From positions 245,009-309,008 of the forward strand of contig QHNH01000016.1 in assembly GCA_003218375.1 (NCBI GenBank): DNA of 64,000 nucleotides. The letters run 5' to 3'. Of this stretch, positions 13,950 to 28,413 are shown piece by piece; the first letter of the stretch is position 1, and each line of letters opens with the position of its first letter. The notes under the pieces are model-generated. The model was not told the DNA's origin, searched no databases, and worked only from the letters and a program-made list of their open reading frames with translations. The stretch comes from Verrucomicrobiota bacterium. GTDB taxonomy: Bacteria > Verrucomicrobiota > Verrucomicrobiia > Chthoniobacterales > UBA10450. Made by a program: the position numbers and the translations under genes.

Positions 13950-14055
13950 GGAACATAGGCAACTTGCCTGTGTGCCCAGCGGACATGCTGGCCGCTGTCA
14001 GCCTGAGCAGCGGAGTGCAACTCCGCTGGACGCACAGACTGAAAGTCTATGTTCC
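13950..14055. repeat. Interspersed inverted repeat, GGAACATAG family, copy 1
   Basis: GGAACATAGGCAACTTGCCT at the left and (inverse) GGAACATAGACTTTCAGTCT at the right, joined by GTGTGCCC/GCGCACAG-like inner arms. The second copy is at 23943-24043. The TAG stop of the minus-strand VOC gene (14047-14049) is part of the right end. Confidence 0.88.
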
Positions 14056-23754: not shown

Positions 23755-23851
23755 TAAATAAATCTTGAGCGCCCAAGCGCAAGCGGCTACTTCTGGTGGC
23801 AGTCGGAGCACGGGCTTCCAGCCTGTGGTCTTTTGTTCTTTGTCAGTGCGG

Positions 23852-24122
23852 TTGTGGAGCGGTGCGAGGAATTCCCGTGAGAATCGGGAGCAGTTGCGCT
23901 GCTGTGACTGGATACGATTTCCCAGGGCCAATCGTGAGCGGCCGGAACATAGACTTCCAGTCTGTGTGCCCAACAGGTTTGTAACCTGTTGAAGATCGCG
24001 GACAACATGTCCGCGGGGCGCACAGGCAAGATGCCTATGTTCCGAGCGCGCTGGCGGTGAAGGCGGGAAAGAGGATGCGTGTCGATCGATGCGCGGAAGC
24101 CAGAAGCCAGAATATTTGCCCG
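23852..24122 (+). promoter_or_regulatory. Cobalamin (AdoCbl/B12) riboswitch, interrupted by a repeat
   Basis: The 5' core is GAGGAATTCCCGTGAGAATC (23865-23884) followed by GGGAGCAGTTGCGCTGCTGT, matching the conserved GGAAnnnGGTGnnAATCCGnn(a)CnGnCGC...CTGT block of this class. The 3' core has GGCGGGAAAGAGG (24062-24074) and the B12 box AGCCAGAATATTTGCC (24105-24120), which matches 12 of 16 positions of AGYCAGGAGACCTGCC. A palindromic GGAACATAG element (23943-24043) separates the halves in a variable peripheral arm. It precedes a btuB-like gene and B12 salvage genes, as expected. A weak hairpin with a short T run (24152-24175) lies downstream and could be the expression platform; mechanism is unproven. 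Confidence 0.75.
23943..24043. repeat. Interspersed inverted repeat, GGAACATAG family, copy 2, inside the riboswitch
   Basis: GGAACATAGACTTCCAGTCT on the left and (inverse) GGAACATAGGCATCTTGCCT on the right, with GTGTGCCC/GGGCGCAC inner arms and a centre containing CAACAGGTTTGTAACCTGTTG and CGCGGACAACATGTCCGCG hairpins. It has the same end sequences as the copy at 13950-14055. Confidence 0.88.
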
Positions 24123-24293: not shown

Positions 24294-26206
24294 ATGCGGA
24301 ATCGTTCATGGCTCATGGCAGCGGCCGTTCTTTTGGCCGCGCCGTTCATCTGCCGCGCCCAGGATGCGGCTTCATCGGCGCTTTCCAATTCGGAGGCGGA
24401 AACTCAAGGAATCGTCGTCAGCGCGACGCGAATCGAAACGCCGATCAACGAGATCGGCAGTTCCGTGACGTTGATCACGGAAAAGGAGATCGAGCGCGAT
24501 CAAAAACGGACGCTGCCGGACGTTCTCCGGACCGTGCCCGGTCTGAATATCGTCCAAACGGGAGGGCCCGGTGGGAAGACGTCCGTGTTCATGCGCGGCA
24601 GCAATTCGAATCACACCAAGGTGTTGATTGACGGCATCGACGCGAACGATCCCAGCCAGGACGGCGTCTTCGATTTCGGTCAGGTCTTCACTTCGGACAT
24701 CGCGCAGGTCGAGGTGCTCCGCGGTCCGCAAAGCAGCTTGTACGGATCGGACGCAATCGGTGGCGTGATCAATATCGTGACGAAGACAGGCGAAGGTCCG
24801 CCTCAATTCACCGGACGTATTGAGGGTGGTTCGTTCGACACGTTCAATCAAAGCGCGAGCGTGAGAGGATCGGTCTCGCGCGTTCGCTATTCATTTAACG
24901 TCGCGCATTTCCTGGCCGACGACACACCGGTGACGCCGCTCGATTTGCTGCCGCCGGGGAGGAAGCGGATCAACGACAGTTACGAAAACATCACCGTCTC
25001 AACCAAACTCGGCGCCGATCTGACGGACATCTTCAGCATCGATTTCGTGGGACGCTACACCGACTCCACTTTGTTTTTTACCGGCGAGGATTTCTCGTTT
25101 TTCCCAAGTGTCCCAGCCGCGAGCCAGAGCGAACAGAACGCGCGGCAGCTTTTCACCCGCGGCGACGCTCGCCTCGTGCTCTTCGGCGGCGCATTTAAGA
25201 ATCGAGTGGGCGTCGGCTACACGAATTATCGTACTGTTATCCAGGCACCCGACACCGGCTTTGGGCTTCCGCCGGAAAACATCAATCACGGGGATCGGAT
25301 CAAGTTCGACTGGCAGGGAAACATCGAGCTCGGCAAGAGCAACGCGTTTCGGAGATCGTGCCGGGTCTATTCACTGCGGCCAGCATTCGGCACGATGATA
25401 ACGATCGCTTCGGAGGAAAAACAACCTGGCGGATTGCGCCCGCGTATCTGATCCCGAACCTCGGCACGAAGCTGAAGGCCAGTTACGGCACAGGGTTCAA
25501 GGCGCCCAGTCTGACGCAATTATTCGTCAGCTTTCCGGCGTTCAATTTTTTCGCGAACCCGGATCTGCAACCGGAGGAAAGCGAAGGATACGATTTCGGA
25601 TTCGAACAGCCGCTGATGGGAGAACGGCTCCGTTTCGGCGCGACCTATTTTCACAATGACATCAAGAATCTGATCAACGCGAACGCGACTTTCACCTCGC
25701 TGGAAAATGTCGGGCAAGCCACCACCCAAGGCGTGGAAACATTTATCTCCGTGGCGGTGACCGACCGCTTCAAGGTGCGCGGCGATTACACTTATACCGA
25801 TGCCGTTGATGACACGACGGGCCTGGAGCTTTTGCGCCGGCCAAAACACAAGGCAAGCGTGACCGCGAGTTGGCTCCCGACGGATCGACTTTCGTTTTCC
25901 GCGACCGCGTTATACGTCGGCTCGCAAGTGGACGGGAACCGCAGCTTCTCGATCCAGCGCCTCGAGGCCGATCCATATTTCGTGGTCAACCTGGCCGCCA
26001 ACTATGACGCCGGCAAAGGCGTCATGCTCTTCGTGCGGATCGACAACGTGTTTGACGAGCGTTACGAAAACCCAACCGGGTTTCAGCGCCCGGGCTTCGG
26101 CGTTTTCGGCGGTGCAAGCTTTACCTGGGGCCCAACCTCTCCACAGCGCAGCGAAGCGAACGACAAGACCCAGCTCACACGCGCGGAGAAGGAAACAACG
26201 AAATGA
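24294..26206 (+). pseudogene. btuB: TonB-dependent vitamin B12 receptor (BtuB-like), frameshifted
   Basis: Frame 1 (24294-25451) has a signal peptide (MRNRSWLMAAAVLLAAPFIC), the plug domain (IETPINEIGSSVTLITEKEI; VEVLRGPQSSLYGSDAIGGV) and early barrel strands. From about 25345 it becomes nonsense, while another frame (open from before 25358 to 26206) continues with SIRHDDNDRFGGKTTWRIAP, YGTGFKAPSLTQLF and the C-terminal TonB-receptor strand. About 40-60 residues expected between IELGKSNAF and the re-entry point seem missing, so this is a deletion plus frameshift, or a sequence error. GGAGG precedes the ATG. The intact protein would import cobalamin across the outer membrane, in keeping with the riboswitch. 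Its stop overlaps the next gene by 4 bp. Confidence 0.82.
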
Positions 26207-26793
26207 GCTCCAACGATTACATTCGGATTCCCGCGGCCGGCGATCCAATGCAGCCGAGCAGGATAGCTCGCTTAAGCTGGACTGTGATTCTGACGCTGGC
26301 TGCCATCGGCGGCAGTCTCGCGCTTTCTTGCGTGGCGCCTTTTGCCGCGCTGGCTGTGGCCCTTGGCGGAACAGCCGGGTTGCGCGCTTCGTTGCGCGCC
26401 GTCGCCATCGTCTGGTTAGCGAATCAAGTTGTCGGATTTGTGTTTTTCCATTTTCCGATCACGACGAACACGTTTCTGTGGGGAATCGCGATTGGGATCG
26501 CCGCGCTTGTCACAACGACCGTCGCATTCGTGGTGATGAAATATGCGGCTGGCTCCGCCACGGCTCTGCGGCTCGGCATTTGTCTCCTGCTCAGTTTCGG
26601 AGTTTACGAAATGACGTTGCTCGTCGCGGCTTTCATCCTGGGCGGCCTCGAGACATTCCGCCCTTCGATCATTGCGCAGCTCGCCTGGATCAACGCGGCG
26701 TCGCTGATGGGTATGATCGTCCTGAACGAAGTGGCGGCTGCGTTGTGTCGGCCCTGGCTTGGAAGGATGCCGCGACTGGCCCGATCGTCCTGA
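26203..26793 (+). CDS. Polytopic membrane protein of the B12 operon, function unknown
   Basis: 196 residues whose ATG overlaps the btuB stop (ATGA). Five or six membrane helices: WTVILTLAAIGGSLALSCVA with its extension, ASLRAVAIVWLANQVVGFVF, LWGIAIGIAALVTTTVAFVV, LGICLLLSFGVYEMTLLVAA and INAASLMGMIVLNEVAAALC. No Walker motifs and no BtuC similarity that I can see. Its size and helix count resemble S-components of ECF vitamin transporters or Cbt-type cobalt/B12-regulated membrane proteins, but I cannot place it in a family. Sitting between btuB and a btuF-like gene under a cobalamin riboswitch, it may be the inner-membrane step of B12 uptake. That is inference. Confidence 0.75.
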   Translation: MSSNDYIRIPAAGDPMQPSRIARLSWTVILTLAAIGGSLALSCVAPFAALAVALGGTAGLRASLRAVAIVWLANQVVGFVFFHFPITTNTFLWGIAIGIAALVTTTVAFVVMKYAAGSATALRLGICLLLSFGVYEMTLLVAAFILGGLETFRPSIIAQLAWINAASLMGMIVLNEVAAALCRPWLGRMPRLARSS

Positions 26794-26797
26794 CCCA

Positions 26798-27742
26798 ATG
26801 TCGAGTTCGCCACGCATCATCTCCCTCTTGCCGAGCGCGACCGAGATCGTGGCCGCGCTCGGGTTCGTGGAGAATCTCGTCGGCCGCTCCCACGAATGCG
26901 ACTTCCCGCCTGGAGTGGAAAAGCTGCCGGTTTGCAGCTCTACAAAAGTTCCGGTTCACGGAAATTCGTATGAGATCGACGAGCGCGTGAAAGAGATCGT
27001 GGCGGAAGGGCTCTCAGTCTATCGCGTCGATGTCGATCGGCTGCGCGCGTTGCAGCCCGACCTGATTCTGACCCAAACTCAATGCGCCGTTTGCGCCGTC
27101 ACTCCGCGCGATTTGGAGGATGCGCTTTGCGCGTGGACCGGCGCGCGCCCGGCGATGATCTCACTCGAGCCGAATAATCTCGCGGACGTCTGGAAAGATT
27201 TTCGCCGCGTCGGCGAGGCACTTGGTGTTTCGAAACGGGCAGAGACGCTGATCGATTCGCTTGGCCAGTGCCTGACAAATCTGCGCGATCGATCAAGTGC
27301 GGCGTCGTCGCGACCGACTGTTGCCGCCATCGAGTGGCTAGGACCGTTAATGGCAGGCGGGAATTGGATGCCCGAACTCATCGAGATCGCAGGAGGCCGC
27401 AGCCTCTTCGCGCAACCGGGCGAACATTCGAACTGGCTCGATTGGGCAAGCCTTGTTGAGGCCGACCCGGAAGTCATCGTCCTTGTCCCTTGCGGGTTTA
27501 AGATCGCACAAACCATCCGTGATCTGAGTCTGCTCACAGAGAATCCGGCGTGGGCGAATCTTCGCGCCGTGCGGCAACGACGGGTTTATCTAATCGACGG
27601 CCATCACTTCTTTAACCGTCCGGGACCGCGGCTCGTCGAATCCGCGGAAATCGGCGCGGAGATTTTACACCCGGACCGATTCCACTTTGGCCATCGTGGA
27701 ACGGGATGGATCGCGATCGATGACGCACGGTCATTCGGATGA
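26798..27742 (+). CDS. Cobalamin-binding protein, BtuF-like
   Basis: 314 residues from ATG 26798, 4 bp after the previous stop. The fold is a class III periplasmic-binding protein: RIISLLPSATEIVAALGFVE, LVGRSHECDFP, LQPDLILTQTQCAVCAV, a long connecting helix and RVYLIDGHHFFNRPGPRLVE. RSHECDFP and the TQxQCxVC segment are typical of the B12-binding subgroup. No signal peptide is seen, so it may act in the cytoplasm or be exported by an unusual route; this signal-less type commonly sits beside DUF71 genes. It overlaps the next gene by 4 bp. No btuC or btuD is encoded nearby. Confidence 0.87.
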   Translation: MSSSPRIISLLPSATEIVAALGFVENLVGRSHECDFPPGVEKLPVCSSTKVPVHGNSYEIDERVKEIVAEGLSVYRVDVDRLRALQPDLILTQTQCAVCAVTPRDLEDALCAWTGARPAMISLEPNNLADVWKDFRRVGEALGVSKRAETLIDSLGQCLTNLRDRSSAASSRPTVAAIEWLGPLMAGGNWMPELIEIAGGRSLFAQPGEHSNWLDWASLVEADPEVIVLVPCGFKIAQTIRDLSLLTENPAWANLRAVRQRRVYLIDGHHFFNRPGPRLVESAEIGAEILHPDRFHFGHRGTGWIAIDDARSFG

Positions 27743-28413
27743 AAGAGCCTGTCGTGATGTCGTGGAGTGGCGGAAAAGATAGCGCGATGGCGTTGCATGA
27801 ACTGCTTCGCGGCGGCGAATATGAGGTTGTCTCGCTGCTCACGAGCGTATCGGAGGAGTATCGGCGGATCAGCCATCACGGCGTGCGGGAATCGCTCCTC
27901 GATGAGCAGGCAAGAACGATCGGCATTCCGCTGCGCAAGGTCTATCTGCCTTCGGGCGAAAACGGCGGATGCACCAACGAGGTTTACGAAGCGATCATGG
28001 CGAAAGAGATGGCGGCGTGTCGCGATGAAGGAATTTCCACGATAGGGTTCGGAGATTTGTTTCTGGAAGATTTGCGCGCGTGGCGGGAAGTGAACCTGGC
28101 GCGATCCGGCATGCGGGGAATCTTTCCGATTTGGCAGCACGAGACTGCAAAGTTGGCTCGCGACGTGATCGCGCTCGGATTCAAGGCGTGTCTCTCCAGT
28201 GTGGAAGAACGTGTTGGTGCCGGTTTTGCAGGCCGGCGGTACGACGAAACGCTGTTACGCGACCTGCCGGCGGGCATCGATCCCTGCGGGGAAAACGGAG
28301 AGTTTCATTCCTTCGTTTTTGATGGCCCGATTTTCCGAGCGCCTGTTTCAGTGGAGGTCGGCGAAATTGTGCTGCGTGGCGGCATGTACTACGCGGACCT
28401 GACGAATCTGTAG
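27739..28413 (+). CDS. DUF71/COG2102 (Dph6-like) adenine-nucleotide alpha-hydrolase, B12 subgroup
   Basis: 224 residues with the PP-loop SGGKDS at 10-15, DEGISTIGFGDLFLEDLRAW and the family-specific CGENGEFHSFVF near the C-terminus. In archaea and eukaryotes this family makes diphthamide; bacteria lack that modification. A published comparative-genomics analysis of DUF71/COG2102 separated a bacterial subgroup linked to B12 genes and proposed a salvage role. This gene, ending a cobalamin-riboswitch operon and coupled (ATGA) to a BtuF-like gene, fits that subgroup. The reaction (perhaps amidation of cobyric acid side chains) is not known. The TAG stop lies inside a palindromic repeat. Confidence 0.85.
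   Translation: MKEPVVMSWSGGKDSAMALHELLRGGEYEVVSLLTSVSEEYRRISHHGVRESLLDEQARTIGIPLRKVYLPSGENGGCTNEVYEAIMAKEMAACRDEGISTIGFGDLFLEDLRAWREVNLARSGMRGIFPIWQHETAKLARDVIALGFKACLSSVEERVGAGFAGRRYDETLLRDLPAGIDPCGENGEFHSFVFDGPIFRAPVSVEVGEIVLRGGMYYADLTNL

Follow-up and report, generated by a model that had tools for sequence, protein, structure and literature searches.

Many bacteria that depend on vitamin B12 code for the outer membrane receptor BtuB without BtuCDF, and the passage of the vitamin across their inner membrane is mostly unexplained (PMC6072759). BtuM from Thiobacillus denitrificans is a solitary S-component that transports B12 and supports B12-dependent growth of Escherichia coli lacking BtuFC. 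Its invariant Cys80, which is located in loop 3, is a ligand of cobalt, and growth depends on it (PMC6072759). The name BtuN is used in automatic annotation for a B12 transporter encoded beside BtuB (PMC8954225, PMC7038796). Gene clustering connects DUF71 proteins with B12 salvage, and in genomes that code for CbiB they were proposed to substitute for CbiZ (PMC3541065). Here, we describe a four-gene operon from a bacterium of the phylum Verrucomicrobiota (assembly GCA_003218375.1, contig QHNH01000016.1, forward strand positions 245,009 to 309,008; these 64,000 nucleotides are "the window", and positions given below refer to it). The operon codes for a BtuB-type receptor, a 196-residue membrane protein, a BtuF-like protein and a DUF71 protein.

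We lean towards the view that this operon encodes a module for the uptake of corrinoids that operates without an ATP-binding cassette (ABC) or energy-coupling factor (ECF) motor, and which consists of a solitary S-component-like translocator and a cytosolic acceptor. The underlying observations were made by computation: the gene order, the absence of FecCD, EcfT and CbiB from the genome, an S-component-type model of the membrane protein, an invariant cysteine, the linkage to B12 and the exchange of a gene pair. The four genes are co-directional (plus strand) and tightly packed. The gene for the outer membrane B12 receptor (btuB, 24294..26206) is recognized by the Pfam domains Plug and TonB_dep_Rec, by its best NCBIfam name (TIGR01779) and by same-genus comparison. 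Its stop codon (26204-26206) is overlapped by the ATG (26203) of the gene for the membrane protein (26203..26793, stop codon 26791-26793). The ATG of btuF follows at 26798 (26798..27742), and its stop codon is overlapped by the ATG (27739) of the DUF71 gene (27739..28413). Coordinates and Pfam/NCBIfam assignments agree with the gene order, the spacing and the identities given in the first-pass annotation, including that of the DUF71/COG2102 PP-loop protein (PF01902, Diphthami_syn_2).

Protein families were searched in this genome, which is 97.8% complete. No member of the FecCD permease family scores above the cut-off, so that a BtuC-type ABC permease is absent not only from the operon, as already noticed, but from the genome; a distant btuCD was looked for and none was found. 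The same search was positive in 13 of 14 control genomes. One near miss (contig C19) adjoins a ZnuA-like gene, reads as a metal permease and was rejected as BtuC. FecCD matches of 25-46 bits in related genomes have the size of metal permeases and were rejected likewise; full-length FecCD members occur in just 3 of 58 relatives. EcfT (PF02361) is not encoded in this genome, and of the 33 genomes with the membrane protein just one has it. In about half of the genomes with the membrane protein, this one included, FecCD is absent or represented only by matches of 25-34 bits. CbiB (PF03186) was not found in the genome. The organism needs B12, as the genome codes for the B12-dependent methionine synthase MetH and for a B12-binding domain of the IcmF/MCM type.

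The 196-residue protein has no Pfam or NCBIfam family, PF20221 (DUF6580) included, and an identity as CbtA or CbtB was rejected because no Pfam family matched. It is a candidate corrinoid translocator with a predicted S-component fold, as judged from its model, its alignment and its B12 linkage. The AlphaFold2 model, computed from 34 homologue sequences (two plasmid-record rows were left out), has a mean predicted local distance difference test (pLDDT) value of 87, a predicted template modelling (pTM) score of 0.82 and six helices, where five or six had been expected. Cys43, Gln75, Gly78 and Trp93 do not vary among the 34 sequences, and Ala48 is likewise invariant. Nearly invariant are Pro46, Trp71, Asn74, Tyr84 (Phe in the window), Pro85, Gly94 and Gly98. 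The conserved positions are located in loop 1 and the start of helix 2, at the end of helix 3, in loop 3 and at the start of helix 4, and loop charges place them on the periplasmic side. Position 2 is not a His, and neither His nor Asp is conserved anywhere in the family. A His at position 2 belongs to the metal site of CbiM and NikM, so that such a site is not expected here. The AxxxA motif, by which S-components dock to the ECF module via helix 1, is not conserved in the family and was not used as evidence.

In a structural comparison of the model by VIA-align, the first 13 rows consist of ECF S-components throughout (TmRibU, BtuM, RibU, ThiT, BioY, NikM, CbiM and 5edl; families outside these rows, such as CbrT, may match as well), with Z values from 12.0 to 7.8, and for helical bundles a Z value below about 13 can reflect a common arrangement. 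The individual values are 12.0 for TmRibU (148 residues, 3.0 Å), 11.5 for BtuM (162 residues, 3.8 Å), 9.9 for NikM, 9.3 for CbiM and 7.8 for 5edl. The next row is unrelated (Z 7.5 over 105 residues). Because the match list is consistent and covers the full length, we argue for an S-component fold despite the low Z values. These low values are, however, one of several points that weigh against a motor-free, S-component-like translocator. In a Foldseek search against the PDB, no S-component was found below E 0.001, and with a profile of the 34 homologues no PDB chain was retrieved at E <= 10, BtuM entries included. The comparison with S-components and BtuM that the first-pass annotation had suggested yielded matches by VIA-align but no significant one by Foldseek. 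The invariant Cys43 is in loop 1, while the cysteine of BtuM is in loop 3. The cytosolic location of the BtuF-like protein, most likely as it is, has the missing signal peptide as its one ground. About half of the genomes with homologues also have FecCD permeases, so that the membrane protein need not be the sole route there. Finally, btuB is broken in the assembly, either as a pseudogene or by an assembly error, and the operon may therefore be decaying or misassembled here (see below).

The membrane protein had been called new. This holds for its name, as no Pfam or NCBIfam family covers it, but its relatives are common in Alphaproteobacteria. They are rare nearby, with two other genomes among 58 relatives and one other among 388 across the phylum. 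Reference genomes contributed 36 loci, mostly from Alphaproteobacteria (Bradyrhizobium, Methylocapsa, Methylosinus, Hyphomicrobium), and plasmid copies occur in Methylocella, Qipengyuania and Acaryochloris. The commonest neighbor is btuB, which adjoins the gene in 24 loci. A scan that covered all but two loci revealed an upstream cobalamin riboswitch on the same strand in 21 cases, and in Parvibaculum and Acaryochloris it directly precedes the gene for the membrane protein. Homologs that lie consistently outside B12 contexts would have been awkward for our view; a link to B12 (riboswitch, btuB, btuF or cob genes) was found in 32 of 39 loci. The other seven (three from Bradyrhizobium, two of the Rhodopila type and two of the Beijerinckiaceae type) have no such link in the stretch that was examined. 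Ribonucleotide reductase genes adjoin the membrane protein in locus L034 and in Acaryochloris. This fits the control of B12-independent isozymes by B12. On the Acaryochloris plasmid (L012:5648-10782), metE is followed by a cobalamin riboswitch, a shortened version of the membrane protein, nrdAB, DUF1636 and cobW. In Parvibaculum (L043:4909-6528), this gene set occurs independently: a cobalamin riboswitch precedes the genes for the membrane protein and BtuF, and a DUF71 gene is divergent from the riboswitch.

In three loci (L026, L030, L045), the membrane protein is found with cob biosynthesis genes, and the structural comparison also matched the metal S-components CbiM and NikM (Z 9.3 and 9.9). 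Both observations would suit a transporter of cobalt or of another B12 precursor rather than of a corrinoid. Membership in the B12 regulon could also be accounted for, since B12-replete cells need no cobalt. Yet btuB, which codes for an outer membrane corrinoid receptor, is the commonest neighbor, several loci pair the membrane protein with BtuF-like proteins, and conserved histidine or aspartate residues are lacking, as is a His at position 2. In addition, the genome probably does not make B12 from cobalt, because CbiB is lacking. Transport of cobalt or a precursor is thus very improbable.

The BtuF-like protein (PF01497, Peripla_BP_2) starts directly with its first strand. As had been predicted, it has no signal peptide, and this holds for any possible start codon. 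It is therefore most likely cytosolic, and it is our candidate for a cytosolic corrinoid acceptor, based on family, tree position, motif and N-terminus. Signal peptides are also missing from the BtuF proteins linked to DUF6580 (see below) and from those of Alphaproteobacteria, which are 28-31% identical and form a separate subfamily. A TQxxCxVC motif (window positions 27080-27100, BtuF residues 96-99) is common to signal-less BtuF-like proteins of Verrucomicrobiota, a cyanobacterium, Qipengyuania and Haloferax. It is absent from the second alphaproteobacterial subfamily.

In ten other loci, one of the neighbors of the membrane protein is DUF7676, and none of these loci also has BtuF. Its gene (L014:5310-5912 and nine other loci) is flanked by btuB and by the gene for the membrane protein, and the protein has a conserved HFHxCIG motif. 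Its model (pLDDT 84) matches HutX, ChuX and HemS/PhuS (Foldseek E 3.6e-5, Z about 6 to 11), which are described as haem-binding proteins and chaperones. From this model, DUF7676 is a candidate corrinoid chaperone. An acceptor role fits, because two unrelated kinds of apparently cytosolic tetrapyrrole-type binders adjoin one membrane protein. Literature searches on DUF7676, as well as on DUF6580, found no papers.

These partners also bear on the idea that uptake is ATP-driven after all, the membrane protein helping an unrecognised system or the BtuF-like protein being exported without a classical signal and feeding one. BtuF does belong to a family of ABC binding proteins, FecCD permeases occur in about half of the homologue genomes, and other ABC types move cobalamin, for example, mycobacterial BacA (PMC10960864). 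We nevertheless regard this as rather improbable. The genome has neither an EcfT nor a FecCD permease over the cut-off, and full-length FecCD members are as scarce among near relatives as stated above. The BtuF-like partners belong to two separate subfamilies, all of them without a signal peptide, and a haem-chaperone-like fold replaces BtuF in ten loci.

The four-gene order was compared with that of sister genomes, as had been proposed for a check. A genome of the same genus (G005) and further genomes of the family have the arrangement btuB-DUF71-DUF6580-btuF; the slot is the same, with btuB, DUF71 and btuF, but it is filled by DUF6580 instead of the 196-residue family. Compared to the window, G005 shows 87% identity over the first part of btuB, 74% for DUF71 and 41% for BtuF. 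In a tree of 26 BtuF-like proteins, those from the window, from genome G025 and from the Qipengyuania plasmid form a clade (support 100/99), and all three are encoded adjacent to the 196-residue family. The DUF6580-linked BtuF proteins form a separate clade (100/100). The membrane protein and its BtuF thus probably came in as a pair, replacing another such pair. Such an exchange suggests that membrane protein and BtuF work together and that the two membrane families have the same job.

DUF6580 is, accordingly, a candidate for a second B12 translocator that fills the same slot. No solved structure was found for it by sequence. When the profiles of the two membrane families were compared, the match did not reach significance (probability 1.2%), and we do not claim common ancestry, although the short alignment falls on the motif of loop 1 and helix 2. 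In loci L124, L123, L125, L126 and L128, from relatives of this genome that lack BtuC, btuB-DUF71-DUF6580-btuF operons are located behind cobalamin riboswitches. A second, lower-scoring DUF6580 copy is encoded outside the operon in this genome and in most related genomes (L135:7226-7867, G000:C10).

The exchange is also relevant to whether the membrane protein might be a B12-regulated sensor or a corrinoid-modifying enzyme (e.g., for decyanation or remodelling). S-component folds occur in receptors, too (PMC11109136), BtuM itself modifies its ligand (PMC6072759), and a role in corrinoid salvage has been suggested for DUF71 (PMC3541065). Yet the membrane protein has no kinase or other signalling partner beside it. 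Moreover, it stands where btuB operons of genomes without BtuCD, in which an uptake step is missing, have another small membrane protein. A sensor or enzyme is quite improbable, and B12-related remodelling, which the first-pass annotation had offered beside an inner membrane uptake step, gains no support. The uptake step, on the other hand, is supported by the absence of FecCD and EcfT, by the S-component-type model and by the repeated B12 linkage in other genera.

The receptor is BtuB-like by family, as had been stated, but its gene is not intact. It is covered by two open reading frames (24294-25451 and 25358-26206): the first frame ends at 25451, and the barrel goes on in another frame. For both halves, the closest NCBIfam name is the B12 receptor TIGR01779, with each half scoring below the cut-off. 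Comparison with the intact btuB of G005 (87% and 82% identity in the two parts) reveals a clean out-of-frame deletion of 91 nt at 25348|25349, by which about 30 codons are lost. The junction shows no obvious repeats. With the B12 receptor model, no second gene of this genome reaches a comparable score.

Riboswitch control of the operon is likely, although the score does not prove it. A probable cobalamin riboswitch (23869..24115, plus strand) precedes btuB. It scores 15.4 bits with RF00174 and does not reach the gathering score of 31.5, while the leader of the same-genus orthologue passes (32.3 bits) and those of other family members have 36 to 49 bits. The 5' core (23869-23949) was found by Rfam, and the 5' half of the aptamer is nearly identical between the leaders from the window and G005. 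The 3' part (about 24047-24115) was placed by eye, with a AGCCAGAAG-type 3' part of the aptamer at about 24092. The position of the variable arm is occupied by a palindromic stretch (23944..24046, strand undefined; DNA folding energy -34.1 kcal/mol, z = -8.4). This looks like an insert of the repetitive extragenic palindromic (REP) type, and ends similar to it are also found at 14033-14055 and 23805-23827. A fragment of a REP-associated transposase is encoded elsewhere in the genome, near metH (L170). A second riboswitch-like match in the genome (contig C3, 18 bits) is located near cell-wall genes and was taken as chance.

The deletion in btuB, the insert in the riboswitch and the lack of another btuB of similar score might indicate that the operon is decaying and idle in its own genome, with btuB being a pseudogene and the riboswitch disrupted. 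However, the three genes that follow btuB have open, well-conserved reading frames, and MetH is present, so that B12 is needed. The insert is located in a variable arm, and a short deletion can be an assembly error. We consider decay unlikely.

For the uptake module, we infer substrate, direction, contact between cysteine and cobalt, capture in the cytosol and the role of DUF71 as follows. BtuB, judged by its family, would bring the corrinoid through the outer membrane. The 196-residue protein would bind it at the periplasmic face, possibly via Cys43 as BtuM does via Cys80, and would let it cross the inner membrane by facilitated diffusion. The BtuF-like protein would then capture the incoming corrinoid, and because this is proposed to happen inside the cell, uptake would be one-way. 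DUF71, a PP-loop ATPase, may act on the imported corrinoid. The proposed route by which DUF71 substitutes for CbiZ fits poorly in this organism, since no CbiB was found. It is tempting to speculate, with less confidence, that a motor-free B12 route of this kind is widespread. An S-component-like protein, perhaps with a cobalt-ligating cysteine, would hand the corrinoid to a cytosolic relative of BtuF or to the HutX/ChuX-like DUF7676, internal binding would drive the process, and the pair would be interchangeable with DUF6580 and its own BtuF.

When compared with described systems, this locus shares with BtuCDF the BtuB receptor and a protein of the BtuF family, but it lacks a BtuC-type permease, and its BtuF has no signal peptide. 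ECF S-components (RibU, ThiT, BioY, CbrT) are alike in predicted fold and in length, while EcfT is missing here and from nearly all genomes with the family. The DUF71 protein is of the B12-linked kind (COG2102; PMC3541065), a PP-loop protein clustered with B12 uptake genes, and its orthologues in btuB operons of related genomes are 67-74% identical. The published subgroup co-occurs with CbiB, in contrast to this genome, which limits the CbiZ-substitute idea for DUF71. DUF6580 (PF20221), a family of small membrane proteins, resembles the 196-residue protein in size, and in this genus and family there are operons in which it takes the same place beside DUF71, BtuB and BtuF. It is, however, a separate sequence family that is paired with a different BtuF clade. 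BtuN, described as a B12 transporter beside BtuB, may be the 196-residue family itself; the context link would then be less new, while the evidence from fold and pairing would still be new.

The closest parallel is BtuM. Both are small six-helix proteins with an S-component fold (here a predicted one), a gene adjoining btuB, no ECF module, one invariant cysteine and membership in the B12 regulon. They differ in having no detectable sequence similarity and in their partners, which are BtuF-like proteins or DUF7676 here and btuR in the case of BtuM; transport by the 196-residue protein is a prediction. The best explanation is that the membrane protein works like BtuM without belonging to its sequence family. 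For the many bacteria with BtuB and no BtuCDF, this draws attention to one unnamed protein family of Alphaproteobacteria and some Verrucomicrobiota, for which a fold is predicted and which has an invariant candidate cobalt ligand and recurring, apparently cytosolic partners. If this is true, the family would join BtuM as a second type of solitary S-component that transports B12, with capture inside the cell as the driving force.

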